Shown here piece after piece: positions 7,081 through 63,900 of a DNA stretch of 64,000 nucleotides. A program made the position numbers and the translations under genes. The stretch is from the NCBI GenBank assembly GCA_038373885.1, contig JAWZYV010001850.1:1-64000 (forward strand). The letters are read 5' to 3'. The stretch's first letter is position 1, and the number at the start of each line of letters is the position of its first letter. The DNA comes from Cheiracanthium punctorium (taxonomy: Eukaryota > Arthropoda > Arachnida > Araneae > Cheiracanthiidae). The notes under the pieces were generated by a model, which worked only from the letters and a program-made list of their open reading frames with translations, searched no databases and had not been told where the DNA came from.

Positions 7081-7086
7081 AACACT
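7081..7086 (+). repeat. Left 6-bp target-site duplication AACACT
   Basis: AACACT directly abuts the first base of the left terminal inverted repeat. The same six bases abut the last base of the right one at 20942-20947. A 6-bp duplication is the size made by Maverick/Polinton integrases. Confidence 0.85.
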
Positions 7087-7098
7087 AGTAGTAGATAA

Positions 7099-7235
7099 AT
7101 GACAGTTCACCTCAGCCGGTACCATGTTAATTCGCCGGTACGCCGTACAGGTGCTTTCCCTAGGCTGAGCGGGGAAGGGGGGCGTGGTCGGACCGGATGT
7201 GGGGAGAGGAAGTTGGAAAGGGTTGATAAGAATTT
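7099..7235. promoter_or_regulatory. GC-rich terminal block of the left TIR
   Basis: A block much richer in G and C than its surroundings (repeated CGGTACC/CGCCGGTACGCCG motifs, then a G-rich run) lies just inside the tip and is mirrored at about 20793-20929. Open frames on both strands across it are mirror shadows without similarity to anything I know. It could be a replication-origin or promoter block; this is inference from position only. Confidence 0.3.
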
Positions 7236-7239
7236 TTTT

Positions 7240-7480
7240 CCTTTTTTTCAGATAAGGGTACTTGTAATTTTTTTCAGATTGTGACATATTTTTCAAATAA
7301 GGGGACTTGTAATTTTTTCAGACTTTAAGATATTTTTGAAATAAGGGTACTTGGAAAAATTTTCAGATTGTGACATATTTCTCAAATAAGAGGACTTGGA
7401 AAAAATTTTCAGATTGCGATGCATTCTCTCATGAAAAATAAGGGACTTTAACATTTAGTATCAAAATAAGAGACTTTGAC
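7240..7480 (+). repeat. Subterminal minisatellite 1, left arm
   Basis: About five imperfect units of roughly 45-50 bp, each containing AATAAGGGxACTTG followed by a T-rich stretch and CAGATTGTGACATATTT. The mirror copy is at 20548-20788. Confidence 0.75.
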
Positions 7481-7555
7481 ATAATTTTAAATAAGCTATA
7501 TGATCTAAACCTGAAATAAAAAATATTATTATAAAATGAGGACCCACCAGCCGCC

Positions 7556-7574
7556 CGGTAGAATTCGTCTACCG
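7556..7574. other. Small hairpin in the left arm
   Basis: CGGTAGA, five loop bases, then TCTACCG form a perfect 7-bp stem inside a GC-rich stretch (7545-7575). It is mirrored in the right arm at about 20454-20472. Function unknown. Confidence 0.4.
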
Positions 7575-7729
7575 CCTCATTTCAAATAAAAATTCTTACT
7601 ATGCTTTTCCACGTCACGCTAGCCTCGCATGAATGGAGACAGGGCGTAGCACAGCAGACGCGTTGTTGTTTTTGTTTCTTTAAATAATAATTAACTATGT
7701 GGAGCAAAGAAATGAACAACATCCCCAGG

Positions 7730-8290
7730 AGGCCTACGAACTTTAATTTTAAGTTAAATAAGTAATTTTACAACAAATATTTTTTTAATCAAGAATTAAT
7801 TTATTTTTTAAACAAGTTTTAATTTTAAGTTAAATATTTTTCTAAATTTATTTTTAATCAAGAGTTTTAATTTTAAGTTAATAATTTTACAACAAATATT
7901 TTTTTAACCAAGTTTTAATTTTTAGTTAAATAATTTTACAACAAATATTTTTTACCAAGTTTTAATTTTACAACAAATATTTTTTACCAAGTTTTAATTT
8001 TAAGTGAAATAATTTTACAACAAATATTTTTTTTACCAAGTTTTAATTTTAAGTTAAATAATTTTACAACAAATTTTTTTAATTAATTTTACAACAAAAT
8101 TTTTTTTAATCAAGAGTTAATTTATTTTTATTTTTTAAACCAAGTTTTAATTTTAAGTGAAATAATTTTACAACAAATATTTTTTTAATCAAATGTTTTT
8201 AATTTATCAGGAAAAAATTTTAATCAAGTGTTTTTAATTTATCAAGAAAAAAAAAAATTTAATCAAGAGTTTTAATTTTTTGTATACCGT
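7730..8290 (+). repeat. Minisatellite 2, left arm
   Basis: Many imperfect units of about 45 bp built from AAGTTTTAATTTTAAGT and AATTTTACAACAAATATTTTTT. The mirror copy is at about 19738-20298. Extremely AT-rich, non-coding. Confidence 0.8.
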
Positions 8291-8507
8291 ATTTTTGTTA
8301 AGTAGCCGTTTAACATTAAAGTAGGATTTAGGATACCCATACATTTTCTACAAATTTAATCTACTGTTAGGGAAGTGAGAAAATTATACCATAGAAAGAT
8401 TTTAGTACCTACAGATTTTACAAATAATGATTTGGATATAGTCTTATTTTCTATTGCGAGAAAACCACTTTAGCCATATATCCCCCAAAACTCAAGTTTT
8501 CGTATAC

Positions 8508-8585
8508 GAAATGCATGAATACGCGTTAGATCCCCTTAGAAAGTCTTCCTACCAAGGCACCCCTCATCCTAGGCAGATACCCCCG
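8508..8585 (-). repeat. Diverged SINE tail relic, left arm
   Basis: GAATACGCGTTAG ... CATCCTAGGCAGATA is the reverse complement of a segment that recurs, diverged, in two SINE-like copies at 58825-58890 and 59042-59115 (ATCTGCCTxxGxxGAGG ... GGAGGACTTT ... ACGCATATTCAC). Because it is in both arms, this insertion predates palindrome formation. Confidence 0.5.
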
Positions 8586-9714
8586 CGTGCAGGTTTACCT
8601 TAAAGCACAAACAAACAAAGTATTTATCTAAACATTTTTTCTTACCCACACATTTTTGATAAATCTTAGGCAACGATTATACTAGTTTATATTTTCTATA
8701 GATCAATTAGAGGAAAAAATGCATTTTTATTAATCCTACAAAACATTTTTTTACTGTATATCCCAAGTAGAGTAACTTGATTTATAGAATTTCAATACGA
8801 TACGAGTTAGATTGTTTATGTGCAACACTCATTTCACTTTGACTATGAAAGCATAATTTTATGCATGAATCAACCTTTTGAGTGGTATGCACTTAACCTA
8901 TTTTATAGAAAGGTGAGCATAACTAGCACAAACTTTTAGACTAGATAGTACTATTGTTAGAAAGTTGAACTATTGGAAATAAAAATTGAAGATCCGTTTT
9001 AGCACAATTGCATGTACATAAAATATCTTTCAATACTTAGATAGTTTAAATCACAAATCATTACTTAAACTAAAAAATACAAGGTTTTTACTTACGTGAA
9101 GGAGATCGTGCTAAATCTTCGAGTCTCTGGACAAAGTACCAACATCTATACGGCTAGCAAGACCGGAAAATCGAATAATGATTTAAAATACATTATCCCT
9201 AATTCCCGGTCCAACTAGCACATTTTCATTCATTCTTAATACCATCATATGCTGAAATAGGTATATTATTTTGACACTAAAAACAAAACACATTTGAAGA
9301 TATTAAACGCTTTAAAAGTAATTTTTTTTTCTTATAACAATTTACCAGATTCACAATGCTATTTTATGTAGGATAAAATTAGTTAGCAAGCGAAAATTTA
9401 ATCTTAGTTAGAATTTACTGAAATACCGTGCATGCCTTATTTTCTATTAGGAGAAAGCCCTCAAACCCCAGTTTTTGTATACAAACGGCATAAAGTACTT
9501 CTACCGATAATGCTATTAATATTAATTACACTGGATTACCCACTAAAAATTTCGCAAAACACCAAAATACAGAAAAACATACATTAACAAAAAAATCATA
9601 CTTAAAATTACAACACATCAAAAGTGCAAACTATAAGAACCGCATAATTATTTTCAATTAGAATTACGGTATCAACTTATATGTAACTAAAATAATAGAA
9701 AATATTACACTTAC

Positions 9715-9941
9715 CCTGTACTTGTACACGCGAGAGGTGAAAATAATAAAAATATTCGCAAATATATCCACAGCATAAGTAAAATCCACGTGCTGGCCAT
9801 ATTGCTGATAACAGAAATTGAGATAAAAAAGTGCCTTGAGGCTCTACAGAGCCGGTACAATAAGAGTTGGCCAGTTTGCCGATAAGATAAAACCAGGGAG
9901 GGTGCTAGGGGAATACCGAATTGTGGGGACACGTGTTTCAT
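9715..9941 (-). CDS. Possible first coding exon with signal peptide, left arm copy
   Basis: Read on the minus strand, a 76-codon frame ends exactly at a strong splice-donor sequence, CAGG/GTAAGTG (donor GT at 9713-9714). A second in-frame ATG at residue 48 has a favourable context (A at -3, G at +4) and begins MASTWILLMLWIYLRIFLLF, a hydrophobic run typical of a signal peptide or membrane anchor, followed by SPLACTSTG. This would be the secreted or membrane-bound start of a spliced gene pointing outward from the centre. The next exon is not certain: candidate acceptors lie near the mirror of 18770 (TTTCAG) and 18868. The left copy differs from the right by Gly for Asp at residue 9. Real expression is unproven. 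Confidence 0.35.
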
Positions 9942-10299
9942 TCTACGTTCAAAAATGGGGACTTATGGATGAAGATGTTTACTACATAAAAACATGATCT
10001 AATTTTTACAAACGCATTGGAACTTTGTATAGGATATCTATTGAACATGTATTAAATACATTATGATTATTCTTCTGATCGACATTATATCCTAAATTCA
10101 AATATCAAAGTTAAGCTACAACGATTAATATATTTTACGTAGTTTAGGAAAATAATGAATCATTAAATTAATTTCTGTGAAACAATTAGCAAAGATCATT
10201 GTACTAAAGCAAATTATTTTTGTTAAGTTTTGATAAATAACAGTAATAAATTATAGGCATTGCAGATGAATGAGTATTCACGTATAAAATAGGTATTAA

Positions 10300-10620
10300 A
10301 ATTATTGTTTAAAACAATTTTTAGAATAATAAACTAAAATTTTTATTTAATAAAGCCATAAACTAAAATTATTAATTAAAACTTGTTAATAAATTAAACA
10401 TATCAAAATTTTTTTTATAGACTTAAATTTTACATAGACATCCTTTTAATAAATGCATAAACTAAACTTATTGTTTAAAACAATTTTTTACAATAATAAA
10501 CTAAAATTTTTATTTAATAAATTCATAAACTAAAACAATTTTTACAATAATAAACTAAAATTTTTTTAATAAAGTCATAAACTGAAATTATTAATGAAAA
10601 CCTGTTAATAAATTAAACTG
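10300..10620 (+). repeat. Minisatellite 3, left arm
   Basis: Imperfect units containing AATAATAAACTAAAATTTTTATTTAATAAA and CATAAACTAAAATTATT, mirrored at 17404-17724. It lies between the signal-peptide exon and the promoter of the 515-aa gene. Confidence 0.75.
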
Positions 10621-10779
10621 ATTACTCTAAAAGATAGCTAATCACAACATATATCAGAAAAAATATAAGCAATTATAATACCTGAAAAATACCGGACAAC
10701 ACTCTTGTTACATGCGGACAAAACATCTGTTTGCACGGCTAAAGTATTCTTGGGTACCCGTTGCAGGAGAACTTACCTA

Positions 10780-11173
10780 CGCCCAACCTACAAACTCTAC
10801 AAATTTAACGGCAACTGATTTTCTCTTATCAGGTATCACAGATCAGATAAGAGATAAGGAAGTGACATGCGCAGAAGACACGTGATAGTGACGTGAGCAA
10901 ATCTGTGTTGATTGAATATCCGGTAGGTTTCTGGCAGGATGTACATTGAGTGGCAACTCTCTGTAACAGGCTAAGACAAGTTAGATGATGCAATATCTAC
11001 AGGGTTGAGGAAGGTAGAGGGCGCTTGGGTAATCACGTGATTTTTTAAAGAATCCGTATAGAGACATTTTAGTTAGATAAAGTGGCCAGGTGTGTGTTGC
11101 GAGACTCTCTTTACACTGTGTGCGCCTATACTTAAGACGTGTGTTTTAATTGATTTTTCACCGAGTTTCAAAA
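10780..11173 (+). promoter_or_regulatory. Upstream region of the 515-aa gene, left arm
   Basis: A less AT-rich stretch precedes the start codon. It contains a perfect 9-bp inverted pair TCTCTTATC (10822-10830) and GATAAGAGA (10846-10854), both GATA-factor-like sites, with a further GATAAGG alongside. Two CACGTG E-boxes follow at 10879-10884 and 11034-11039, the second inside the 12-bp perfect palindrome AATCACGTGATT. No clear TATA box is seen. The motifs are visible; that they drive transcription is inference. Mirrored at 16851-17244. Confidence 0.45.
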
Positions 11174-12721
11174 ATGTCTTTGCTTGAATCGATCGAAAAT
11201 AACTTTAACATTGAATACACTCCCGAGTTTTATACTCAAAGTGATGCCGATGTGTTGCTGCAAGAAATAATACAATTGCCTTTAGATGTAAAGCCTCTGC
11301 AAAGTATTGAAAAGAAAATTTCCCCCGAGTTTTATACTGAAAGTGATGTTGACGTGCTACAGCAAGAATTGTTTCAGTTACCCCTGCAAAGTAGTGAAAA
11401 GAAAATTTCCTCGACCCGTAAAGTAATTACTTTTGCTGATGAAGGAATCAATTACAGTTTACCTGGAGCAACAGTCTATGTTTACTCTTGGATACCCATT
11501 TTGCAAAAAATACGTGAAGATCTACAGAAAGTGACAAATTATGAATTTAATATGGTGCAAGTGAACTTTGGCTCTGAAGAACAACCTAAAATTGAAGACG
11601 GCAACTACGAAGATTTTAATCTAGACCTATCATCAGGTGTATGCATTCTAAGTTTTGGATCTAAACGAACTTTGGATTTTAAACCAGCGAACTGTGAAAC
11701 CGCTACCATTAAATTAGAACATGGCTCAATGTGTAAGATATATCCCCCAACCAACAAACTTTTAACGCATGGTATTCCTTCTGAACCTTATGTGACAGAC
11801 CCACACATTAACCTAACATTTGCCAAAATGTACATTTATGAGCCTTCCCCGAAAAGGGCAAAGTTGGAAAATTGGACGGACGATCTTTACCATAGCTTAT
11901 ATGCTTCTGTAAATAGTACATGGCACTTGGAAAGACTTATCTACGTTTCACTTCACGATGAAAGAACTGACTTGAAGATTTATATTAGACAATTTATTCA
12001 GAATACCCAATTAGACTATATACCAACCGGTCAGGGAGTCGTGATGAACCCTTCCACATGGATCGAATTTATTGTAAAACTATTAGATTTTAATATAGGT
12101 CATAGCAATAGCTCTTTTATTTGTAATAATCAATTATCTGTATTTAATGATGATGGAAAATGCATCTTACAACAAATTTACAAAACCGGAGATTCATTCT
12201 CGTTAAATCCAATTTCCTTAACACTTTTAAATGATCAAGTAAAAAAACTTTGCGAAATGAGAAATGAAATATTGGAATGCATTTTAAAAACGCTATATAC
12301 GACGACCCTACCCCATTTAATTTTAAAATTAAAGCCGCAAAAATGTAACCGTGAACCCCATTGTACTTATGATGAGGCTAAACAACAATTAATGGATATA
12401 GTACATCAGGAAATTTTTAAAAACATAGGCCGGGTTCAGGATCATCCTTCGCAAAGGATACATGCTTGCTCGAATAGAACACATGTTGATGAGAGAGAGG
12501 GTCTTATAAGTAGTAAAGCATGGTTTATGGTCGACATGACGTATATTGCAAGAGAGATATGCGAGAAAAAATGCACATGTATTTATGACGGAGAATTTTT
12601 TTCAAACATTTTCATTGAAGACTATATGAAGTATCTTCAAAATGTGCTATTTAATACATTTTTTCAACCGTTTTCAGATTTTGCTAATTCTAAGGATGGC
12701 AAAACATGTGTAATTATGTGA
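11174..12721 (+). CDS. AlkB-like/PC4-like protein with NLS and CaaX box, left arm copy
   Basis: 515 codons from ATG at 11174 (context AAAATGT); the open frame extends eight codons further back to 11150, but that would start at TTG. Residues 17-37 and 50-71 are a tandem duplicate, (S/T)PEFYTxSDxDVL..E..QLPL, resembling the N-terminal segment of AlkB homologues. Residues 82-223 resemble ALKBH2: DEGINYSLPG, W106-IP, a FNMV strand, LSFGSKR, LxHGSM, PTN...H199-GIP, INLTF. The HxD iron ligands align with Gly143 and Tyr145, and the two 2-oxoglutarate arginines with His211 and Ala217, so it is probably not a dioxygenase. PSPKRAKLE (224-232) resembles the Myc nuclear localisation signal. Residues 256-306 (IYIRQFI...PTGQGVVMNPSTW) resemble the ssDNA-binding PC4 domain. 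It ends in CVIM, a CaaX box. No introns; AATAAA at 12920. Confidence 0.85.
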   Translation: MSLLESIENNFNIEYTPEFYTQSDADVLLQEIIQLPLDVKPLQSIEKKISPEFYTESDVDVLQQELFQLPLQSSEKKISSTRKVITFADEGINYSLPGATVYVYSWIPILQKIREDLQKVTNYEFNMVQVNFGSEEQPKIEDGNYEDFNLDLSSGVCILSFGSKRTLDFKPANCETATIKLEHGSMCKIYPPTNKLLTHGIPSEPYVTDPHINLTFAKMYIYEPSPKRAKLENWTDDLYHSLYASVNSTWHLERLIYVSLHDERTDLKIYIRQFIQNTQLDYIPTGQGVVMNPSTWIEFIVKLLDFNIGHSNSSFICNNQLSVFNDDGKCILQQIYKTGDSFSLNPISLTLLNDQVKKLCEMRNEILECILKTLYTTTLPHLILKLKPQKCNREPHCTYDEAKQQLMDIVHQEIFKNIGRVQDHPSQRIHACSNRTHVDEREGLISSKAWFMVDMTYIAREICEKKCTCIYDGEFFSNIFIEDYMKYLQNVLFNTFFQPFSDFANSKDGKTCVIM

Positions 12722-12919
12722 TGTTATTGGTGTATAACTAGTATTGCAATTGTAAAAAAAAAAATTAAAACCATTGTGATTATGTAGAAAAGGCATGCTT
12801 GCTTCTACAACAGTAAGATATTACTGACTTGTGCATGCTTAGTTAAAGAATACTCATTGAAAAGTTATTATTTTCTTAATTGTGTAAATAGTTTGTGTAA
12901 TTTAAAATATATTTTTGTA

Positions 12920-12925
12920 AATAAA
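12920..12925 (+). terminator. Polyadenylation signal AATAAA, left arm gene
   Basis: AATAAA lies about 200 bp after the stop codon of the 515-aa gene and is followed by a T/G-rich stretch (TTTTCTGTGTTTTCTTTATGTGTATGTG) in pieces consistent with a downstream element. The mirror site is 15099-15104. Confidence 0.5.
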
Positions 12926-13627
12926 TAAGTTTAAATACGAAAACTTTTCTGTGTTTTCTTTATGTGTATGTGTGTGTTGATTACTTGCAATATAAAAATT
13001 TATAAAATTTTACTGAAGCAAAAAGTGGTAAAGTTAACATACTTGGTCAAGATTTAAGGTTCTCGTGTCGTGTTTTATACTTATCTTTTATACACTACAA
13101 GGTAAAAAGTTACAAATTTAACAAAATTTATTGAAGCATGTACTATGGAAACATTAATCTACTACATAGAAATAAAATGTTCTGATTAAAATCATAAACT
13201 TAAGTGTAATAGGTAAATTGAGTTACATGAGAATTCACAAAGTATTAATTTTTTTATAAAATGAACTTGGCTAAAAAAGTAAGTTTCCATAATTTTATAA
13301 CTTAATCGATTTTACATGTTTTTCAAAAATAAAGTTAAGTGAGATAAAGAAACTTAGAATTTTTAAATAAAGATTTTTTGAGGTATTCTTTAATGTAAAG
13401 ATCTTACCACATTTTACTTGAAGTAACAGAATATTTTAAATCAGACACTATGTTTTTAAAACATCAGAGTATTAACTTAGCATATTTTTATTAAGTAATG
13501 GGCTTGAATATTTTTATAAGAAATATCAACTAAGTGCACATATTACACATTTTACTGATTAAGATGGTTATGCTTACAAATTTTAAATAAATATGCTCTT
13601 ACTTTTATACATGTTACTTGTTCAAAC

Positions 13628-14204
13628 TAAGTGTACTTTTGATTTGTATACGTTTATGAGTTCTCATAAGTTATGAAATTATTTCTCGAAAGGAACTTAG
13701 CTATTAGAACTTTGTAAATTTTGTAGAAGTAGTATGCTTAACATGTTTTTCATGAAATGGATTTAAATTTGGTATAGAAATAATCAGTTATTTTTGCATA
13801 GATGTATAAACTTATCTTTATGTAAACCATAACTAATTAAAAGTAACATAATTTATGTCTATACAAAGTGAGGGACTTAAACTATTTTTCAGAATTATCA
13901 AGTAAAGGATTTTACAAAATACTTAGTAAACTGCATTAATAGATTGTAAGTTGTAATTTTTTTCTGTTAGAAGTTTTGCACATTGCTATATTTTATGTTC
14001 TGATAAGTCGTTGAATATATTCTTTAAATAAACTAACAGATCTGTACTTTGAAAATTTCATTGAAGTGTTGAACTTTGGTATTTTTCGAATGTTACGAAC
14101 TTGATACATTTTTTCTGAAGTGCTAGATATGTGAAATTGTCTTTTTAGAAACATTGAATTATTCAACTTAGTACATTTCAGTTACTCTTTCAAGATAACG
14201 GACT
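13628..14204. other. Palindrome-centre segment present on one side only
   Basis: AT-rich, non-coding. The segment lies between the end of the paired left arm and the inner hairpin and has no mirror copy. At the equivalent place on the right only 7 bases (14390-14396) separate the hairpin from the arm. The simplest reading is a deletion of about 570 bp from the right side. Confidence 0.7.
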
Positions 14205-14389
14205 TAGAATTTTTTTACAAATAGCAAGCTAGTAACTTGCTAAACGTGCTTCTTGCAAATATTTTTAAATACTGTTCTTAAAAATTATCAAAGTTGTAAC
14301 TACTAAAAAGAAATAAACAAATTAAAAAAATAATAAATTAAGTATTTAAAAATATTTGCAAGAAGCTTGCTATTTGTAAAAAAATTCTA
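14205..14389. repeat. Inner hairpin marking the original palindrome centre
   Basis: The left stem 14205-14273 (TAGAATTTTTTTACAAATAG ... AAATATTTTTAAATACT) pairs with 14341-14389. A 67-bp AT-rich loop lies between, and one extra segment of about 20 bp (14230-14249) sits in the left stem. The stem is centred near 14307, whereas the outer arms are centred near 14012; the 590-bp difference in mirror sums equals the one-sided 570 bp plus the 20-bp indel. So this is the continuation of the same palindrome. Confidence 0.75.
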
Positions 14390-15098
14390 ATTAAAGTTTT
14401 GAACAAGTAACATGTATAAAAGTAAGAGCATATTTATTTAAAATTTGTAAGCATAACCATCTTAATCAGTAAAATGTGTAATATGTGCACTTAGTTGATA
14501 TTTCTTATAAAAATATTCAAGCCCATTACTTAATAAAAATATGCTAAGTTAATACTCTGATGTTTTAAAAACATAGTGTCTGATTTAAAATATTCTGTTA
14601 CTTCAAGTAAAATGTGGTAAGATCTTTACATTAAAGAATACCTCAAAAAATCTTTATTTAAAAATTCTAAGTTTCTTTATCTCACTTAACTTTATTTTTG
14701 AAAAACATGTAAAATCGATTAAGTTATAAAATTATGGAAACTTACTTTTTTAGCCAAGTTCATTTTATAAAAAAATTAATACTTTGTGAATTCTCATGTA
14801 ACTCAATTTACCTATTACACTTAAGTTTATGATTTTAATCAGAACATTTTATTTCTATGTAGTAGATTAATGTTTCCATAGTACATGCTTCAATAAATTT
14901 TGTTAAATTTGTAACTTTTTACCTTGTAGTGTATAAAAGATAAGTATAAAACACGACACGAGAACCTTAAATCTTGACCAAGTATGTTAACTTTACCACT
15001 TTTTGCTTCAGTAAAATTTTATAAATTTTTATATTGCAAGTAATCAACACACACATACACATAAAGAAAACACAGAAAAGTTTTCGTATTTAAACTTA

Positions 15099-15104
15099 TT
15101 TATT
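15099..15104 (-). terminator. Polyadenylation signal AATAAA, right arm gene
   Basis: TTTATT on the + strand (AATAAA on the - strand) about 200 bp beyond the stop codon, the mirror of 12920-12925. The two genes are therefore convergent, with their 3' ends about 2.2 kb apart across the palindrome centre. Confidence 0.5.
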
Positions 15105-15302
15105 TACAAAAATATATTTTAAATTACACAAACTATTTACACAATTAAGAAAATAATAACTTTTCAATGAGTATTCTTTAACTAAGCATGCACAAGTCAG
15201 TAATATCTTACTGTTGTAGAAGCAAGCATGCCTTTTCTACATAATCACAATGGTTTTAATTTTTTTTTTTACAATTGCAATACTAGTTATACACCAATAA
15301 CA

Positions 15303-16850
15303 TCACATAATTACACATGTTTTGCCATCCTTAGAATTAGCAAAATCTGAAAACGGTTGAAAAAATGTATTAAATAGCACATTTTGAAGATACTTCATAT
15401 AGTCTTCAATGAAAATGTTTGAAAAAAATTCTCCGTCATAAATACATGTGCATTTTTTCTCGCATATCTCTCTTGCAATATACGTCATGTCGACCATAAA
15501 CCATGCTTTACTACTTATAAGACCCTCTCTCTCATCAACATGTGTTCTATTCGAGCAAGCATGTATCCTTTGCGAAGGATGATCCTGAACCCGGCCTATG
15601 TTTTTAAAAATTTCCTGATGTACTATATCCATTAATTGTTGTTTAGCCTCATCATAAGTACAATGGGGTTCACGGTTACATTTTTGCGGCTTTAATTTTA
15701 AAATTAAATGGGGTAGGGTCGTCGTATATAGCGTTTTTAAAATGCATTCCAATATTTCATTTCTCATTTCGCAAAGTTTTTTTACTTGATCATTTAAAAG
15801 TGTTAAGGAAATTGGATTTAACGAGAATGAATCTCCGGTTTTGTAAATTTGTTGTAAGATGCATTTTCCATCATCATTAAATACAGATAATTGATTATTA
15901 CAAATAAAAGAGCTATTGCTATGACCTATATTAAAATCTAATAGTTTTACAATAAATTCGATCCATGTGGAAGGGTTCATCACGACTCCCTGACCGGTTG
16001 GTATATAGTCTAATTGGGTATTCTGAATAAATTGTCTAATATAAATCTTCAAGTCAGTTCTTTCATCGTGAAGTGAAACGTAGATAAGTCTTTCCAAGTG
16101 CCATGTACTATTTACAGAAGCATATAAGCTATGGTAAAGATCGTCCGTCCAATTTTCCAACTTTGCCCTTTTCGGGGAAGGCTCATAAATGTACATTTTG
16201 GCAAATGTTAGGTTAATGTGTGGGTCTGTCACATAAGGTTCAGAAGGAATACCATGCGTTAAAAGTTTGTTGGTTGGGGGATATATCTTACACATTGAGC
16301 CATGTTCTAATTTAATGGTAGCGGTTTCACAGTTCGCTGGTTTAAAATCCAAAGTTCGTTTAGATCCAAAACTTAGAATGCATACACCTGATGATAGGTC
16401 TAGATTAAAATCTTCGTAGTTGCCGTCTTCAATTTTAGGTTGTTCTTCAGAGCCAAAGTTCACTTGCACCATATTAAATTCATAATTTGTCACTTTCTGT
16501 AGATCTTCACGTATTTTTTGCAAAATGGGTATCCAAGAGTAAACATAGACTGTTGCTCCAGGTAAACTGTAATTGATTCCTTCATCAGCAAAAGTAATTA
16601 CTTTACGGGTCGAGGAAATTTTCTTTTCACTACTTTGCAGGGGTAACTGAAACAATTCTTGCTGTAGCACGTCAACATCACTTTCAGTATAAAACTCGGG
16701 GGAAATTTTCTTTTCAATACTTTGCAGAGGCTTTACATCTAAAGGCAATTGTATTATTTCTTGCAGCAACACATCGGCATCACTTTGAGTATAAAACTCG
16801 GGAGTGTATTCAATGTTAAAGTTATTTTCGATCGATTCAAGCAAAGACAT
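15303..16850 (-). CDS. AlkB-like/PC4-like protein with NLS and CaaX box, right arm copy
   Basis: Second copy of the 515-codon gene, convergent with the first; the ATG is at 16850-16848 on the minus strand. The translated protein is identical to the left copy across all 515 residues, with the same duplicated N-terminal motif, ligand-poor AlkB-like region, PSPKRAKLE signal, PC4-like region, a cysteine-bearing C-terminal third (C391, C397, C463, C467, C469; metal binding possible but unproven) and the terminal CVIM. Perfect identity in an otherwise slightly diverged palindrome means either recent origin, gene conversion between arms, or selection. Neighbours and upstream motifs mirror those of the left copy. 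I do not recognise a named gene for the whole fusion. Confidence 0.85.
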   Translation of the reverse strand: MSLLESIENNFNIEYTPEFYTQSDADVLLQEIIQLPLDVKPLQSIEKKISPEFYTESDVDVLQQELFQLPLQSSEKKISSTRKVITFADEGINYSLPGATVYVYSWIPILQKIREDLQKVTNYEFNMVQVNFGSEEQPKIEDGNYEDFNLDLSSGVCILSFGSKRTLDFKPANCETATIKLEHGSMCKIYPPTNKLLTHGIPSEPYVTDPHINLTFAKMYIYEPSPKRAKLENWTDDLYHSLYASVNSTWHLERLIYVSLHDERTDLKIYIRQFIQNTQLDYIPTGQGVVMNPSTWIEFIVKLLDFNIGHSNSSFICNNQLSVFNDDGKCILQQIYKTGDSFSLNPISLTLLNDQVKKLCEMRNEILECILKTLYTTTLPHLILKLKPQKCNREPHCTYDEAKQQLMDIVHQEIFKNIGRVQDHPSQRIHACSNRTHVDEREGLISSKAWFMVDMTYIAREICEKKCTCIYDGEFFSNIFIEDYMKYLQNVLFNTFFQPFSDFANSKDGKTCVIM

Positions 16851-17244
16851 TTTTGAAACTCGGTGAAAAATCAATTAAAACACACGTCTTAAGTATAGGC
16901 GCACACAGTGTAAAGAGAGTCTCGCAACACACACCTGGCCACTTTATCTAACTAAAATGTCTCTATACGGATTCTTTAAAAAATCACGTGATTACCCAAG
17001 CGCCCTCTACCTTCCTCAACCCTGTAGATATTGCATCATCTAACTTGTCTTAGCCTGTTACAGAGAGTTGCCACTCAATGTACATCCTGCCAGAAACCTA
17101 CCGGATATTCAATCAACACAGATTTGCTCACGTCACTATCACGTGTCTTCTGCGCATGTCACTTCCTTATCTCTTATCTGATCTGTGATACCTGATAAGA
17201 GAAAATCAGTTGCCGTTAAATTTGTAGAGTTTGTAGGTTGGGCG
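16851..17244 (-). promoter_or_regulatory. Upstream region of the 515-aa gene, right arm
   Basis: Exact mirror of 10780-11173 by eye, with the same paired GATA-like motifs and two CACGTG E-boxes (at 16985-16990 and 17140-17145). Function inferred only. Confidence 0.45.
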
Positions 17245-17403
17245 TAGGTAAGTTCTCCTGCAACGGGTACCCAAGAATACTTTAGCCGTGCAAACAGATG
17301 TTTTGTCCGCATGTAACAAGAGTGTTGTCCGGTATTTTTCAGGTATTATAATTGCTTATATTTTTTCTGATATATGTTGTGATTAGCTATCTTTTAGAGT
17401 AAT

Positions 17404-17724
17404 CAGTTTAATTTATTAACAGGTTTTCATTAATAATTTCAGTTTATGACTTTATTAAAAAAATTTTAGTTTATTATTGTAAAAATTGTTTTAGTTTATG
17501 AATTTATTAAATAAAAATTTTAGTTTATTATTGTAAAAAATTGTTTTAAACAATAAGTTTAGTTTATGCATTTATTAAAAGGATGTCTATGTAAAATTTA
17601 AGTCTATAAAAAAAATTTTGATATGTTTAATTTATTAACAAGTTTTAATTAATAATTTTAGTTTATGGCTTTATTAAATAAAAATTTTAGTTTATTATTC
17701 TAAAAATTGTTTTAAACAATAATT
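17404..17724 (-). repeat. Minisatellite 3, right arm
   Basis: Mirror of 10300-10620, made of TTTAGTTTATTATT-type units. Confidence 0.75.
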
Positions 17725-18082
17725 TTAATACCTATTTTATACGTGAATACTCATTCATCTGCAATGCCTATAATTTATTACTGTTATTTATCAAAACTTA
17801 ACAAAAATAATTTGCTTTAGTACAATGATCTTTGCTAATTGTTTCACAGAAATTAATTTAATGATTCATTATTTTCCTAAACTACGTAAAATATATTAAT
17901 CGTTGTAGCTTAACTTTGATATTTGAATTTAGGATATAATGTCGATCAGAAGAATAATCATAATGTATTTAATACATGTTCAATAGATATCCTATACAAA
18001 GTTCCAATGCGTTTGTAAAAATTAGATCATGTTTTTATGTAGTAAACATCTTCATCCATAAGTCCCCATTTTTGAACGTAGA

Positions 18083-18309
18083 ATGAAACACGTGTCCCCA
18101 CAATTCGATATTCCCCTAGCACCCTCCCTGGTTTTATCTTATCGGCAAACTGGCCAACTCTTATTGTACCGGCTCTGTAGAGCCTCAAGGCACTTTTTTA
18201 TCTCAATTTCTGTTATCAGCAATATGGCCAGCACGTGGATTTTACTTATGCTGTGGATATATTTGCGAATATTTTTATTATTTTCACCTCTCGCGTGTAC
18301 AAGTACAGG
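18083..18309 (+). CDS. Possible first coding exon with signal peptide, right arm copy
   Basis: Mirror of 9715-9941. The exon reads into GTAAGTG with the donor GT at 18310-18311. The better start is the ATG at 18224 (AATATGG context), giving about 29 residues dominated by ILLMLWIYLRIFLLF, a signal peptide or membrane anchor. Downstream, TATTTCAG ending at 18770 and TCTTGCTAG ending about 18867 are possible acceptors; the segment after the latter stays open for 14 codons before a stop and is followed by another donor-like GTAAGT near 18929. Nothing here resembles a known Maverick protein. It could also be chance. Confidence 0.35.
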
Positions 18310-19442
18310 GTAAGTGTAATATTTTCTATTATTTTAGTTACATATAAGTTGATACCGTAATTCTAATTGAAAATAATTATGCGGTTCTTATAGTTTGCAC
18401 TTTTGATGTGTTGTAATTTTAAGTATGATTTTTTTGTTAATGTATGTTTTTCTGTATTTTGGTGTTTTGCGAAATTTTTAGTGGGTAATCCAGTGTAATT
18501 AATATTAATAGCATTATCGGTAGAAGTACTTTATGCCGTTTGTATACAAAAACTGGGGTTTGAGGGCTTTCTCCTAATAGAAAATAAGGCATGCACGGTA
18601 TTTCAGTAAATTCTAACTAAGATTAAATTTTCGCTTGCTAACTAATTTTATCCTACATAAAATAGCATTGTGAATCTGGTAAATTGTTATAAGAAAAAAA
18701 AATTACTTTTAAAGCGTTTAATATCTTCAAATGTGTTTTGTTTTTAGTGTCAAAATAATATACCTATTTCAGCATATGATGGTATTAAGAATGAATGAAA
18801 ATGTGCTAGTTGGACCGGGAATTAGGGATAATGTATTTTAAATCATTATTCGATTTTCCGGTCTTGCTAGCCGTATAGATGTTGGTACTTTGTCCAGAGA
18901 CTCGAAGATTTAGCACGATCTCCCTTCACGTAAGTAAAAACCTTGTATTTTTTAGTTTAAGTAATGATTTGTGATTTAAACTATCTAAGTATTGAAAGAT
19001 ATTTTATGTACATGCAATTGTGCTAAAACGGATCTTCAATTTTTATTTCCAATAGTTCAACTTTCTAACAATAGTACTATCTAGTCTAAAAGTTTGTGCT
19101 AGTTATGCTCACCTTTCTATAAAATAGGTTAAGTGCATACCACTCAAAAGGTTGATTCATGCATAAAATTATGCTTTCATAGTCAAAGTGAAATGAGTGT
19201 TGCACATAAATAATCTAACTCGTATCGTATTGAAATTCTATAAATCAAGTTATACTACTTGGGATATACAGTAAAAAAATGTTTTGTAGGATTAATAAAA
19301 ATGCCATTTTTCCCTCTAATTGATCTATAGAAAATATAAACTAGTATAATCGTTGCCTAAGATTTATCAAAAATGTGTGGGTAAGAAAAAATGTTTAGAT
19401 TAATACTTTGTTTGTTTGTGCTTTAAGGTAAACCTGCACGCG

Positions 19443-19515
19443 GGGGTATCTGCCTAGGATGAGGGGTGCCTTGGTAGGAAGACTTTCTAAGGGGATCTAA
19501 CGCGTATTCATGCAT
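19443..19515 (+). repeat. Diverged SINE tail relic, right arm
   Basis: GTATCTGCCTAGGATGAGG ... ACGCGTATTCATG, the mirror of 8508-8585 and about 70% similar by eye to the SINE-like copies near 58825 and 59042. Confidence 0.5.
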
Positions 19516-19737
19516 TTCGTATACGAAAACTTGAGTTTTGGGGGATATATGGCTAAAGTGATTTTCTCGCAATAGAAAATAAGACTATATCCAAATCATT
19601 ATTTGTAAAATCTGTAGGTACTAAAATCTTTCTATGGTATAATTTTCTCACTTGCCTAACAGTAGATTAAATTTGTAGAAAATGTATGGGTATTCTAAAT
19701 CCTACTTTAATGTTAAACGGCTACTTAACAAAAATAC

Positions 19738-20298
19738 GGTATACAAAAAATTAAAACTCTTGATTAAATTTTTTTTTTTTTCTTGATAAATTAAAAACAC
19801 TTGATTAAAATTTTTTCCTGATAAATTAAAAACATTTGATTAAAAAAATATTTGTTGTAAAATTATTTCACTTAAAATTAAAACTTGGTTTAAAAAATAA
19901 AAATAAATTAACTCTTGATTAAAAAAAATTTTGTTGTAAAATTAATTAAAAAAATTTGTTGTAAAATTATTTAACTTAAAATTAAAACTTGGTAAAAAAA
20001 ATATTTGTTGTAAAATTATTTCACTTAAAATTAAAACTTGGTAAAAAATATTTGTTGTAAAATTAAAACTTGGTAAAAAATATTTGTTGTAAAATTATTT
20101 AACTAAAAATTAAAACTTGGTTAAAAAAATATTTGTTGTAAAATTATTAACTTAAAATTAAAACTCTTGATTAAAAATAAATTTAGAAAAATATTTAACT
20201 TAAAATTAAAACTTGTTTAAAAAATAAATTAATTCTTGATTAAAAAAATATTTGTTGTAAAATTACTTATTTAACTTAAAATTAAAGTTCGTAGGCCT
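19738..20298 (-). repeat. Minisatellite 2, right arm
   Basis: Mirror of 7730-8290: repeated ATATTTGTTGTAAAATTA and ACTTAAAATTAAAACTT units. Confidence 0.8.
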
Positions 20299-20547
20299 CC
20301 TGGGGATGTTGTTCATTTCTTTGCTCCACATAGTTAATTATTATTTAAAGAAACAAAAACAACAACGCGTCTGCTGTGCTACGCCCTGTCTCCATTCATG
20401 CGAGGCTAGCGTGACGTGGAAAAGCATAGTAAGAATTTTTATTTGAAATGAGGCGGTAGACGAATTCTACCGGGCGGCTGGTGGGTCCTCATTTTATAAT
20501 AATATTTTTTATTTCAGGTTTAGATCATATAGCTTATTTAAAATTAT

Positions 20548-20788
20548 GTCAAAGTCTCTTATTTTGATACTAAATGTTAAAGTCCCTTATTTTTCATGAG
20601 AGAATGCATCGCAATCTGAAAATTTTTTCCAAGTCCTCTTATTTGAGAAATATGTCACAATCTGAAAATTTTTCCAAGTACCCTTATTTCAAAAATATCT
20701 TAAAGTCTGAAAAAATTACAAGTCCCCTTATTTGAAAAATATGTCACAATCTGAAAAAAATTACAAGTACCCTTATCTGAAAAAAAGG
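20548..20788 (-). repeat. Subterminal minisatellite 1, right arm
   Basis: Mirror of 7240-7480, with AAGTxCCCTTATTT and GTCACAATCTGAAAA motifs in tandem. Confidence 0.75.
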
Positions 20789-20941
20789 AAAAAAATTCTT
20801 ATCAACCCTTTCCAACTTCCTCTCCCCACATCCGGTCCGACCACGCCCCCCTTCCCCGCTCAGCCTAGGGAAAGCACCTGTACGGCGTACCGGCGAATTA
20901 ACATGGTACCGGCTGAGGTGAACTGTCATTTATCTACTACT

Positions 20942-20947
20942 AACACT
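20942..20947 (+). repeat. Right 6-bp target-site duplication AACACT
   Basis: Directly follows the last base of the right terminal inverted repeat and matches 7081-7086. The empty site before insertion would have read GGTAAT-AACACT-TTTTAT. Confidence 0.85.
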
Positions 20948-26952: not shown

Positions 26953-27790
26953 ATCCCTTAATACAGCCGAATTTTTTAAAATTATCAACTATAACGTGTT
27001 TTATTCATCGTTACTCCGATGTACTAAATGAGAAGATTTCAACTTTCTGAAATTTGGCGGAATTCCCCCAACTTATATCAATGTACTCATTTGGCGAGAA
27101 TTCTGTAGATAGATCGCTTGAAATCCCTTAACAACTGCATTATTTCTTCACGGATCATTAAAATTTAACGCTTTATTCTAATAAAACCTTTGCACTTGTT
27201 TTCAAAAATCTATTTCCTTAAGCTCTCAATAAATTGCGCCAAGCCCAAATCTGTGCAAACCGCTAGAACTCACTTCCTCAAAATCGGCATTTGAACCATT
27301 CTATTTTTTCGCCAAACTAAAAAAAATTTACCTATTAGCCTCCGAAATCTTCAATTCTTATTGTATTGCGTATAAAACATTTCATTCCTGCTCCGATTTA
27401 CCATGCACACGATATTATAATTAAAAAAATAAATAACCTTACGAATATAAACTAACAACAACAAAAAAAAAAACATTATTATTATTCTTTTATTTTTACT
27501 TTGAGAATTTAAAACATTTTATTCGGCAAAATCGCGACACATGGCAACCACGATCCTTATTTCACACTTTTTTCACTACAGGGGTTACAATTACGGAAAG
27601 CTTTTTGCGTGGAGAGCATAAAAAATCTCTTAAATTCCGGGAACGGGTGGACTTTCAAAGTTTTAAAGTGGACTACGATTTATTCTATATTATTTTACAT
27701 ATCTGTGCTAATTTTCAGGCCGATAGGTCCATTTTTGTGGATTTGTATACGAATCAAATCCGCAAACAAACAAACAAACAGAATTTATTA
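26953..27790 (+). repeat. Dispersed repeat, copy B
   Basis: Near-full copy of the repeat at 1-832, ending in four AAAC units at 27765-27780. It is followed immediately by a partial copy, making a tandem pair. Confidence 0.85.
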
Positions 27791-27792
27791 CA

Positions 27793-28459
27793 GCATTATT
27801 TCTTCACGGATCATTAAAATTTAACGCTTTATTCTAATAAAACCTTTGCACTTGTTTTTAAAAATCTATTTCCTTAAGCTCTCAATAAATTGCGCCAAGC
27901 CGAAATCTGTGCAAACCGCTAGAACTCACTTCCTCCAAATCGGCATTTGAGCCATTTTATTTTTTCGCCAAACTAAAAAAATTTACCTATTAGCCTCGGA
28001 AATCTTCAATTCTTATTGTTTTGCGTATAAAACATTTCATTCCTGCTCCAATTTCCCATGCACACGATATTATAATTAAAAAAAAATAACCTTACGAATA
28101 TAAACTAACAAAAAAAATCATTATTATTCTTTTATTTTTACTTTGAGAATTTAAAACATTTTATTCGGCAAAATCGCCACACATGGCAACCACGATCATT
28201 ATTTCACACTTTTTTCACTACAGGCGTTACAATTACGGAAAGCTTTTTGCGTGGAGAGCATAAAAAATCTCTTAAATTACGGGAACGGGTGGACTTTCAA
28301 AGTTTTAAAGTGGACTACGATTTATTCTATATTATTTTACATATCTGTGCTAATTTTCAGGCCGATAGGTCCATTTTTGTGGATTTGTATACGAATCAAA
28401 TCCACAAACAAACAAACAAACAAACAAACAAACAGAATTTCATTTTTATTTATAAGATT
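27793..28459 (+). repeat. Dispersed repeat, copy C (partial, in tandem with B)
   Basis: Starts at GCATTATTTCTTCACGG, equivalent to position 27137 in copy B, so the tandem period is 656 bp. Its AAAC tail (28406-28433) is longer than in the other copies, and it shares the terminal TTATTTATAAGAT with copy A. Tandem arrangement suggests unequal exchange or a satellite-like origin. Confidence 0.85.
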
Positions 28460-59990: not shown

Positions 59991-60636
59991 ATCCACCGTG
60001 AAAATACATCGTTCATGGCGAAACCAGGTGATCCGTGACGCATTTGTCGTCGCTCCTCCCATGCCGTGAAAATAATCCTTCCACGTCGCCGTGAACCTAC
60101 TTACTGCGTTATTTTTAAAGCGTGGTTTGTTATTTCTGATGGCAAGGAAAAGCCGACTTAAATTCGCTGAGAGAAAGAAGTTTCTGCCTTCCAGACAAGT
60201 GTAAAACCAATTGAGTTACATATGTGGAAACAAGCACCTTTCAGTATACTGTGTTTACAGATAATTCATTGATTAACTACTCGATGCATTTTTCATGGTA
60301 TAATTACAGCTCAAAATATGCATTACACCCTAAATGGACTCATTTGGTTCAAGTTCCTAACGTGGGCTAAACGTAAATATTACCGTTACTCCGTTGCTCA
60401 CCTAATTATATTTCCAAAAGAAAAACGGTGTTTTGACGTTTAAGGTGCCTCGTACCATGTAAAAGTGATTAAAGAAAATGCTTTGATGTGTATGATTTCA
60501 TATTTCTATAAATAATTTATATTTTCATATCAATACAATAGTCTTTCTGCTTACATTAATGTCAATTAAAGATTTCCAAAGTGTGTTAGGAAATTTAAGT
60601 TTATTAACAGATTAAAATAAACTATTTTCTATATGT

Positions 60637-60943
60637 GGTTCACTGCGAGCAGGCCAACAAGCGTAAAAGCCACTTTACTGACTCAATATTTTTTTACTTA
60701 CACTCTGATAATGCATAGTTGAAAAAACCTATTTTTATACCTGACGATATATAACTTTTTAATTTACAAATGATTTAATTTGTTAATTACTGAAAACAAT
60801 AATTAATTATATTTCTGTAGATAAATATGTAAAATCTACATAATAATAGGTCTTTTTAATTATGCATTATCAAAATGTAAATAACAAAAACTATTGAGTC
60901 TGTAAAATTGTTCTTACATGTGTTAGGCTCAGCGCAGTGAACC
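60637..60943. mobile_element. Small TIR element (MITE)
   Basis: GGTTCACTGCGAGCAGGCC at the left and GGCTCAGCGCAGTGAACC at the right form an 18-19-bp inverted repeat with two or three mismatches. The tip GGTTCACTGCG also occurs at the left end of the 56470 repeat, suggesting related families. No clear target duplication. Confidence 0.6.
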
Positions 60944-63900
60944 AAATATGAAAAATTAGTTGTCTTTAATAAGTGAATATATTAATTATTCGTAATTAAT
61001 TTAAAAACTTTTCAAGGCATTAATACAAACAGGAAAGGCCAATGTATTGATATATAAAATTTTTTGCATGCAAATGAATTATTTTTGTAAATACAGGAAC
61101 ATATATATGAAATAACTTTTTACGATTTTTCCGATTTTTAAAAGGTACAAAATCCCTTAATGTTTTATCGGTATTTTAAATGACTTCTTATACTCACATT
61201 GAAATTTTATTACGATATTTTAAATATGCCTGATTAGTGGAAAATTGAACAAATGTGGAAAAAATGCACATATTAACATATTAGTTTGAATTTAAGTGCA
61301 TTGCATAGTTTCATATTCCTCGGTGAAACAAAATTTTTAGGAACTTGTAGCAACAGGGAAGTATAAGTACTGAAAGTCGTTCATCATTTTCATGATCTGT
61401 ACCAATTTATTTTAAATTTGTTATTCAGATAATCAGAACATGGAACTTCATAAGTAATACATAAAAACAGCAAGTTATATTTTATGAATATCATTTGCTG
61501 TTTTTATCTACTACTTCCTACTATATCAAGCATCCGACGAGCTGAGAATTGCATTCATTTAAAACGCATTAATCTCAATAGATGCGCTTCCTAATCCTTG
61601 CCATTACACGTCACATAGTAATCTCTTAGAAGTCCCAACAAATTGCTAGCAGTGTTCGAGGAGTGATATCGCGATAAATTAATTACCGTGTAAATGCATC
61701 CAATTTCACGCTCAGAAAGATGTTAACAAAAGTAATATCACATAAACCCTATTAATATAGAGAATTTGTGTTGGTGATTTTCCCTTTCTGTGGCTGCTCT
61801 TGAAGATAAAATATGAATTATTGTTTATAATTTTTTAGAATGCATAGAACTGTTGTTTATATCTTATTTTTTGCAAAAGTAAATATGCCGTAAAATTTTC
61901 TTTTTTCGCATCTCTTAAGTTAACAGGCAGTTCTTAAAACGAATATACTGTCAATTTGAAAGTCAAGTGCAAAATTCTTTTATTTTTTTATCACTTGTAT
62001 TCACGTAATACTATTGTCTAGCATCATAATAATAATTCAAAGTACGCCAACTCTGGCCGATAACCCTATTTTATATTCATAAAACATATAGATCCATGCA
62101 TTTCCTAAACTATGAAATTTATTTATGACAGCCTACAAAATATTTGTCTAAACTCCATAAATAACTAATTAACTAATTGAATAAAATGCTTATAAAAATA
62201 TTTAAAAGTATGTTTATAAATAGTATGTGTGGTTTCGTCCATTAAAAAATAATGTTGTTTTGAACATACTATTATTGAAAAAAATCCATATACAAATCTC
62301 ACATAAACTAAACTAGACCATTACTACAGCTAATGTAGAATCAGTTTTATGCATTTCACTGCTTCACATGCAATTGAAACTTTAGTTATCTTAAGATTGC
62401 CGCAATCAAAGAGAATGTTTTATTATATTCAATATACTAAAGGTTCTAATTTGTATAAAAGTTTATTATAATTTATAAATTATTCCTCTGAAAATTTAAA
62501 GTTACTTTATTTAGCCTGTTTTCTGTAAAATGCCTACCTTCCATTAAATAAAAATGTATTTCTCAGTGTGGTATATCGCCTGATGCTTGTAATACTCTAA
62601 ACCCTTTAAACATATTGTTTTACATTCATTACATACGCCTAACGAACACTGTATGTATTCCTAGAAAACAGCATAATGTATTCTCAAGCTATCAAACTAA
62701 ACAGCAGTATTAAAGTATTCGTTCGTATTCTAAAAACAAAGAATATCATGTAAAAAATGGTGAAAATGAAAACTTTAACGTAAATAAATTCCATTTTAAA
62801 ATATCGCCTACCTGTGCAATCGCAGCTTCGTTGTTTTAATACGAAGGTAAGTATTTTGATTGTGTTGAATCAGTACAGTCTACTTCAGAAAATATTTATC
62901 AATGCATAGTGCTGAAAAATACCTGTGAGAACCTGCCAATGAGAAAACTTACTCCATCTTTTTCTAACCTACGTGTTTCATGTTTGTCTTAATACGGTCG
63001 AGAATCAATGCACAAAATATGCTTAAAACTCTTTTTTTTCTTAAAAAATATGAAAAAATGGAGAGACATTCATAAAAAAATTTAATAACTCTCACTATTT
63101 AATTTAGAACTTTTCAATTATAATCAAAACTTCATAATTTATTTTTACACCCAAAAAGTATAAATGTAGACTTCCAACTCCATACGAATGTGTGAAATCC
63201 ATGAAACTTTCATTTATTCTTCAAGTGTTTAAGAGAGCGTTGCAGAACATGTTAATTATTCTTTTATACAAATCATTATCTTTTCTAAATAGAGAAATTT
63301 TCTTTTCTGTTAAGTGCTTTTTATCGGTGTAATGAATCCCACTTAGCGTAATGCATTATGAATCATTCATGACAACAAGTCTTCCAGAGATAAAGACAGG
63401 ATGTCTAAAGAAGTTGCTTTTAGTTTGATTGAGAAATGTAATTTATTATTCGTGCATAGTTCCTTACGCATTACTTAGACTTTCTTTTCAATTTTCCAAA
63501 TTCCTTAACATTACCCTTGAAATAGGTTATACATTATAATGGTCATTTTGTTGCGTCATTGGAAGTTGATTGTGAGTTTAAAGATTGGTAACGACATTTT
63601 ATCGTTTTTTAACAAATATCAGCAATGCACAAGCAGTTTATTTATTACTACCAGTTTTCTTTTAGCAGTTATTATCTCACAATATTCTGGCTGATGCACA
63701 TGGCGTATTCTTTTTGTAATAACAGTTCACCGTATAATGCTTAGAAAGACATAGAAGTCTTTTTGTGCGAAAATTTGCTTAGTAAATTACTCATAATAGT
63801 CAAAATGTCGAAATCTCCAAAAAGTGAACATAGCAGATATTCATTTGACAGCGACGATTTCTTTAATTTGTACGTACTTTGTATTTTTGAGTTTCAATGA

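Follow-up and report, generated by a model that had tools for sequence, protein, structure and literature searches.

Palindromic elements with Polinton-type ends in the spider Cheiracanthium punctorium: a probable satellite family with a proposed snap-back cycle

How can a mobile element which is a single large palindrome, with only one kind of gene, multiply in a genome? The question is raised by contig JAWZYV010001850.1 of the spider Cheiracanthium punctorium (assembly GCA_038373885.1). The window which we have analysed is the whole stretch of 64,000 nt at positions 1 to 64,000 of its forward strand; the contig is called C1752 below. The element occupies 13,855 bp of the window (7087–20941) between two copies of the hexamer AACACT, and it has ends like those of Polintons, also called Mavericks. 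Polintons are treated as autonomous virus-like transposons, relatives of many viruses. We consider that the element belongs to a multi-copy family of non-autonomous, palindromic satellites of Polintons which encode the DNA polymerase PolB, and that it would be copied by a snap-back cycle. We give this reading a probability of about 0.72.

When the window is compared with itself by BLAST, positions 7086–13626 match 14398–20942 in inverted orientation, with 99.80% identity over 6,545 columns, 9 mismatches and 3 gap openings. The outermost base pair of this match (7086/20942) is a chance match with the duplication. The edges read AACACT / AGTAGTAGATAAATG ... CATTTATCTACTACT / AACACT, with element tips AGTAGTAG/CTACTACT. 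The length of the inverted repeat, its AACACT duplications and its arms of about 6.5 kb had been given in the initial annotation of this DNA, and they are confirmed here. Each 6.5-kb arm has subterminal AT-rich tandem repeats and one gene. Only one kind of open reading frame (ORF) of at least 120 amino acids (aa) is present, in two copies which are read towards the centre (11150–12721 on the + strand and 15303–16874 on the – strand), as had also been annotated; none of the ORFs of this size codes for PolB, integrase, protease, packaging ATPase or capsid. Since there is no further ORF of at least 120 aa in the element, its enzymes should come from elsewhere, in trans, as was first proposed. The sequence beyond the tips is not mirrored. 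Because of these unmirrored flanks, and because such tips are found with other exact 6-bp duplications at other loci, the palindrome is not due to chance. Its features are listed below, where C6745 is a Polinton of the same assembly and X is a variable motif of the tips, both described later.

7087–20941: whole palindromic element, 13,855 bp, between the AACACT duplications
7081–7086, no strand: left target-site duplication, AACACT, by direct reading
7087–13626, + strand: left arm, from the tip to the deletion point, 99.80% identical to reversed 14398–20941
7087–7101, + strand: left tip, AGTAGTAGATAAATG, with similar tips at other copies and in the C6745 Polinton
7115–7122, + strand: motif X, copy 1, GCCGGTAC; both X copies are the same in all 24 elements, judged from one tip of each
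7134–7141, + strand: motif X, copy 2, GCCGGTAC, on the same basis as copy 1
7087–7415, + strand: end stretch common to the C6745 Polinton, 79.5%
7742–8285, + strand: AT-rich subterminal tandem repeats; 7837–8318 is common to the C6745 Polinton, 77%
11150–12721, + strand: AlkB-PC4 gene for a protein of 515–523 aa, with an AlkB-like domain lacking iron ligands, followed by a PC4-like tandem and by a helical end
13627–14203, + strand: arm sequence without mirror on the right side, where about 590 bp are deleted; two-sided in other copies
14273–14341, no strand: apex loop, 69 nt, with borders TAAATAC/GTATTTA
14398–20941, – strand: right arm, from BLAST of the window against itself
15303–16874, – strand: mirror-image second copy of the AlkB-PC4 gene, an ORF
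20927–20941, – strand: right tip, CATTTATCTACTACT, by direct reading
20942–20947, no strand: right target-site duplication, AACACT, by direct reading

Is this palindrome a single accident? We have searched the assembly (2.53 Gb in 15,171 contigs) with the protein of the element and scored the best 84 of 3,358 first-look candidates, a choice by which intact copies are over-represented. All 84 scored matches are free of stops. Fifty of them form 25 pairs of genes facing inward, as counted by hand with the window included. Apart from the window there are 24 pairs, and we have read the apex in the 20 of them with the usual gene spacing of 3,137–3,213 bp. All 20, on 19 contigs, fold round one central loop, and over 150 bp on each side the symmetry has no mismatch in 19 of them and one mismatch in the other. 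The loop reads TGTTCTTAAAAATTATC...TAAATTAA or the reverse complement of this, or it is a variant; both orientations occur along the contigs, and its length between the borders TTTTTAAATAC/GTATTTAAAAA is 67–92 nt. Nine other copies with both ends read are 13.4–15.2 kb from tip to tip. The usual form of the family is a palindrome of about 14 kb, in which a loop of about 70–90 nt separates two arms of about 7 kb, each with a Polinton-type end and an AlkB-PC4 gene. Of the 34 unpaired matches, 20 were checked for a mirror arm; in 15 of these, sequence of the arm or tip lies there in the correct orientation, one of them showing only the tip and a few being shifted by deletions.

A single snap-back accident is rejected, since the palindrome has multiplied in the assembly. 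The initial annotation had seen a one-off defective product in the window; instead the palindrome is the form which is transmitted, and its gene is kept by selection. The further palindromic copies with duplications of their own which the annotation had proposed to look for were found, in the 20 apexes and in the tip pairs described below. The window copy itself is a deletion derivative of the usual palindrome, with a gene spacing of 2,588 bp and about 590 bp gone on one side of the apex. The stretch of 771 bp between its arms was considered as the original loop and rejected: the apexes of the other copies identify it as a leftover of the deletion.

Contig C8106 (L027, L028, L029) has two palindromic copies, C8106a and C8106b, inside a larger inverted duplication. 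The outer flanks of this duplication are approximately reverse complements of each other, which may be a real duplication or an assembly fold-back. The apex loops of C8106b, C8169 and C2075 (L068, L070, L078) appear mixed or half-symmetrised, either from two orientations at one locus or from averaging in the assembly.

Could the whole family be an artefact of assembly, produced when reads or contigs were folded back into chimeras? The larger inverted duplication of C8106, with its nearly reverse-complementary flanks, could be such a chimera, and the few half-symmetrised loops look as though two orientations had been averaged. However, fold-back of a read would mirror the flanks as well, the same apex is found at 20 places in 19 contigs, and exact 6-bp duplications bound most of the tip pairs. 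We find an artefact very improbable.

The duplications were studied in 19 tip pairs: the window, nine family copies and nine further pairs read at their tips only. A perfect 6-bp duplication is present in 17 of the 19; the exceptions are C8106b, where it is offset by one base, and C11410, where it matches in five of six positions. Seven of the nine further pairs span 12–16 kb, while C6063 has 6.3 kb and C11410 has 25.8 kb. The window element has AGT-repeat tips of the type (AGT)2//(ACT)2. Deviating starts among the elements read are AGTAGGG in C7726 (both ends) and C12579 (left end), and AGTAGTAA in C11410.

Which element might supply the missing enzymes? There are at least 34 PolB matches (PF03175) in the assembly, found among the best 91 of 364 candidates scored. 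One of them (163733–165238) belongs to the C6745 Polinton, whose tips lie at 167930 and 139668, 28.3 kb apart; we have read about 9 kb of it. The two tips are 100% identical to each other over 250 bp and there is a TTCGGT duplication on either side. The tip reads AGTAGTAGATAATCAAGAGTTCACCT..., with GGG+GTG as motif X. Together with some 1.2 kb of repeats it aligns with the ends of the palindrome arms, with main blocks at about 74–88%, as expected for a non-autonomous derivative of a PolB-encoding element. C6745 also has an AlkB-PC4 fusion frame of 480 residues, 34% identical to the palindrome protein over nearly its full length (E 4e-98). The kinship with Polintons proposed at first is upheld by the AGT-repeat tips, by the 6-bp duplications and by C6745, with its tips, subterminal repeats and homologous gene. 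C6745 also answers in part to the full elements with the same ends that were to be searched for according to the initial annotation, since it carries PolB. Because of the 6-bp duplications we infer that the helper also possesses an integrase. The PolB frame of C6745 has N-terminal C2H2 zinc fingers and an endonuclease VII motif.

Two other Polintons, C1077 and C11358, were rejected as direct helpers: their ends are unlike the palindrome arm. C11358 has a 6-bp duplication TAAGTA and the tip AGTAGTGGGG. It has an ATPase-like gene and a weak match to adenovirus protease (E 0.013, below the cut-off). In this element AlkB and the PC4-like protein are separate genes at opposite ends (L086:4856–5437 and L087:2775–3779); they are fused in C6745 and in the palindrome. 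Because the PC4 gene of C11358 points the opposite way, either the fusion involved an inversion or the split state is derived. As a separate observation, 2 kb of the terminal repeat of C1077 (L084:439–4688) is found as an inverted duplicate, 439–2447 against 4688–2680, with 96% identity; it is perhaps another head-to-head derivative, of an unrelated Polinton family. No relative was found in the viral contigs searched.

The AlkB-PC4 protein was studied in both its parts. The closest solved structure for the AlkB part is human ALKBH2 (E 1e-15). A structure model with a mean predicted local distance difference test score (pLDDT) of 72 also gives ALKBH2 in Foldseek (E 2e-14), where the best 50 matches listed are all of AlkB/FTO type and none is PC4, nuclease or integrase. 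The first model, made from two sequences, was useless (pLDDT 29). The iron motif HxD is GNY in the window protein, HKY in P0001 (a relative with 54% identity, on a contig of 1,963 bp), CKD in P0006 and HRD or HKD in the seven relatives which cover it; both arginines of RISLTFRK are gone in the window protein and in P0001. The loss of the iron ligands argues that the protein keeps a binding role rather than a repair role. The PC4 part was identified from the C11358 protein, which matches PF02229 with E 7.5e-9. With hhalign the second half of the fusion family (nine sequences, that of the window included) aligns with the C11358 and C1077 proteins (hhalign score 99.3%, E 3e-20). Pfam applied directly to the palindrome protein gives weak PC4 matches (E 0.06–0.18) and no nuclease or integrase, and NCBIfam has no family for it. 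The PC4-like protein would probably coat or guide a single strand, and perhaps it competes with the protein of the helper.

In a tree built from 8 of the 11 rows (three short ones were dropped), the window protein groups with P0001 (100/100), and the C6745 fusion is the sister of this pair, moderately supported (81/86). A relative of the fusion protein is found in another spider, Stegodyphus mimosarum, with 33% identity. The ratio of nonsynonymous to synonymous change per site (pN/pS) is 0.28 when 11 partial copies are pooled and compared with the window gene; L057, also a partial copy, was left out because of gaps, and ten full genes with five changes or fewer each were not pooled. To judge from this ratio the palindrome gene is under purifying selection. 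One may ask if the element is then autonomous, with the AlkB-PC4 protein itself as its replication or transposition protein: it is the only gene of at least 120 aa and it is under selection. However, this protein or its halves sit in PolB Polintons, C11358 having also the protease-like and packaging-ATPase-like genes, which gives it the look of an accessory; neither Pfam nor the best 50 Foldseek matches listed contain a nuclease or integrase. We find this alternative scarcely credible.

How are such palindromes copied? The two arms of a copy are very similar: over 3,950 bp of inner arm, the mismatches between a copy's own arms are 1, 0, 1, 1, 1, 4, 1, 0 and 13 in nine copies. The tips of the other copies, on the other hand, have 80–88% identity with the window tip over up to 264 bp. 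The clearest case is C11040, which compared with the window has no mismatch and two gaps in 3,949 columns of the inner arm, yet tips only 82% identical. When the arms of the window, C8106 and C8169 are compared in successive windows, the variable part is approximately the outer 1.8 kb. Of 20 elements in which both tips were compared, 16 have the same 71-nt sequence at either end, and among 24 elements there are 22 distinct 71-nt tips; both counts take in the helper C6745 and enter C8106a and C8106b separately. It seems that a new tip, gained by recombination, usually ends up at both ends of the element. Since tips mostly match within an element yet differ between elements, even with identical inner arms, it seems that one arm serves as template for the other approximately once in each mobilisation, which is what a snap-back (hairpin) cycle would lead one to expect. 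The copy with 13 mismatches, C8471, also has 6 gaps between its arms; this drift suggests, in a single copy, that the equality of the arms dates from insertion and isn't maintained by constant conversion.

The replication cycle that we infer is as follows. The polymerase of a helper Polinton would start synthesis at a tip of the palindrome, protein priming being a property of this PolB class. The displaced single strand would fold back to give a hairpin, about 7 kb long, for which one double-stranded tip would suffice as origin. Extension round the loop would give a new palindrome with both arms derived from one arm. The helper integrase would then insert it, giving the 6-bp duplication. The initial annotation had already proposed a snap-back, head-to-head product: the anatomy fits, with a palindrome of short loop whose arms are alike while the tips differ between copies. 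A similar molecule could also be formed in another way: a linear molecule of about 7 kb with one closed hairpin end, a separate satellite virus-like genome, would form a head-to-head dimer during its insertion or earlier. The nearly perfect symmetry round a 67–92-nt loop in all 20 apexes, with the loop in both orientations along contigs, agrees with it. However, the orientation of the loop also follows from that of the insertion and proves nothing, the window element has no second ORF of at least 120 aa and hence no resolvase for a closed end, and the cycle could hardly be distinguished from the one which we favour. We regard such a dimer as quite improbable.

A different alternative is a foldback-type transposon, in which the terminal inverted repeats (TIRs) of a Polinton derivative grew inward until they met, while chromosomal gene conversion or ectopic exchange made the arms equal with no hairpin step. 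The Galileo element of Drosophila is a precedent: according to excerpts of its description it belongs to the P superfamily, has duplications of 7 bp and TIRs of at most about 1.26 kb, and shows TIR growth and chimeric copies, for which ectopic exchange is the explanation given (PMC3573991). In the palindrome family, too, tips and inner arms form mosaics. Nevertheless, at about 1.26 kb the longest Galileo TIRs fall well short of the arms of the palindrome, and in the same excerpts its twelve copies with dissimilar TIRs have no matching duplications (PMC3573991), against 17 of 19 perfect ones here. The divergence between the arms of C8471 indicates that not every copy is equalised by conversion once it is inserted, as far as one copy can tell. 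We consider the foldback alternative unlikely.

Several observations weigh against a satellite with a snap-back cycle. Gene conversion or recombination could equally make the arms alike, and the excerpts on Galileo describe copies with two like TIRs of one subfamily around an inside from another (PMC3573991). Within elements, the 71-nt tips differ by 5 nt in C12579, 3 nt in C3771 and 2 nt in C6063; those of C8106b differ by a short indel (37 shifted differences), and within C8106a and within C8106b the two arms are 21–30% different in some 200-bp bins of the repeats. Some of the nine further tip pairs may be other elements sharing these tips. The apex count covers pairs with the usual spacing, and the four pairs left out have 1,439, 2,048, 2,440 and 3,079 bp. 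Integrase, which the initial annotation had wished to see beside PolB in full elements, was found neither in the approximately 9 of 28.3 kb read in C6745 nor in any other helper, and no such tip was found at the guessed position beside three other PolB loci. Finally, 5 of the 20 unpaired gene copies checked have no mirror arm. Such unpaired copies were considered as autonomous elements and rejected: three of the five, when read further, stop near the apex, and the remaining sequence has no ORF of more than 129 aa.

The tips of the satellite also have a two-part motif, X, which stands twice, around ATGTTAA; in the window GCCGGTAC is found at 7115 and 7134. We called it as {GGG, CCG, GCG} followed by {GTG, GTA, CAG, GAT}, from one tip per element, the left one where present, with alphabets chosen after viewing an initial set of tips. 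The two copies agree in 24 of 24 elements. When the second copies are shuffled among elements (20,000 shuffles), the mean is 3.4 agreements and the maximum 10, values which are descriptive, given that the elements are related and the alphabets post hoc. The right tip of C3771, outside this count, has one base altered in the second copy. All nine combinations of {GGG, CCG, GCG} with {GTG, GTA, CAG} are seen, plus GCG+GAT. Because the repeated motif changes in step, it has the look of a pair of sites which a single DNA-binding module would recognise, and perhaps it is a recognition site which admits the satellite to particular helpers.

The zinc fingers of the helper polymerase are of interest in this respect. 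Zinc-finger-like genes are reported in some adintoviruses, in excerpts of PMC11071296. Between the closely related PolB genes of C6745 and C7250 the finger arrays differ in 29 of 108 residues and the next 35 residues differ in 2; among the arrays compared (L090, L092, L096), C6745 and C5453 are alike and C7250 is unlike them. A concentration of the C6745/C7250 differences on base-contacting positions was rejected: 5 of 16 presumed contact positions differ, as assigned by general zinc-finger rules, against 24 of 92 others. The arrays change fast, and it is possible that the satellite tracks its helpers. Taken to its limit, this would be a new class of mobile parasite: a self-folded hairpin genome of about 7 kb with a single protein-primed tip, inserted as a palindromic dimer and parasitic on Polintons, whose twice-written combinatorial tip code would be reshuffled in each cycle and renewed at either end, so as to match the fast-changing zinc fingers of the helper polymerases. 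We offer this wider proposal as a tentative one, of which we are rather doubtful.

The family would record how protein-primed DNA is copied, whether its strands snap back and how its ends are exchanged. Both arms of a copy seem to be fixed in the state which they have when it is inserted, so that the concordance of the arms is a clock which can be tested; with the paired tip motif and the zinc fingers of the helper polymerase, helper recognition becomes testable from sequence.

Other features of the window are independent of the palindrome. Positions 3–805 and 26956–28422 contain a dispersed repeat of 0.6–0.8 kb in three copies, 93–95% identical, two of them in tandem. At 60521–61060 there are 540 bp of self-complementary sequence, 71% identical to its own reverse complement and possibly an old foldback element. 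A tRNA-like match to RF00005 (43191–43262, 33.3 bits) is the only Rfam match at the gathering threshold in the window.

We may finally compare the palindromes with known systems. Protein-primed viruses of the adenovirus type give snap-back or inverted-duplication defective genomes, which are head-to-head, have the viral origin at both ends and depend on a helper. The palindrome is like them in its head-to-head symmetry, in having one type of origin at both ends and in its helper dependence; it differs in being an integrated multi-copy lineage with a conserved gene of its own. Miniature inverted-repeat transposable elements (MITEs) and other internally deleted non-autonomous transposons are mobilised in trans and have ends common to their helper. 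The same is proposed for the palindrome, which has helper-like ends; unlike MITEs, it has about 14 kb, is symmetric and keeps an intact gene at 34% identity to that of the helper. With Foldback and Galileo elements it shares long, internally repetitive inverted repeats, chimeric copies and, from what the excerpts give, TIRs more variable than the inside. It differs from Galileo by its Polinton-type tips and 6-bp duplications, by the selected gene in its arm and by new tips which come mostly in matching pairs.

The form had been thought undescribed, and no palindromic Polinton satellite is mentioned in the titles or abstract openings of the openly accessible literature searched. Polintons and Mavericks, of adintovirus-like type, are the closest relatives. 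In the vertebrate Mavericks the ends are (AGT)2//(ACT)2 or (AG)3//(CT)3, with 6-bp duplications and TIRs of 46–1,447 bp, as stated in excerpts of PMC8097293. The palindrome has the AGT-repeat ends and the 6-bp duplication, and with C6745 it shares tips, subterminal repeats and the AlkB-PC4 gene. In contrast with these elements, its arms measure 6.5 kb in the window copy and about 7 kb in other, complete copies of the usual form, the whole element is palindromic, and it has no ORF for PolB, protease, ATPase, capsid or integrase. The palindromic satellite would thus be an addition to the known Polinton/Maverick elements.

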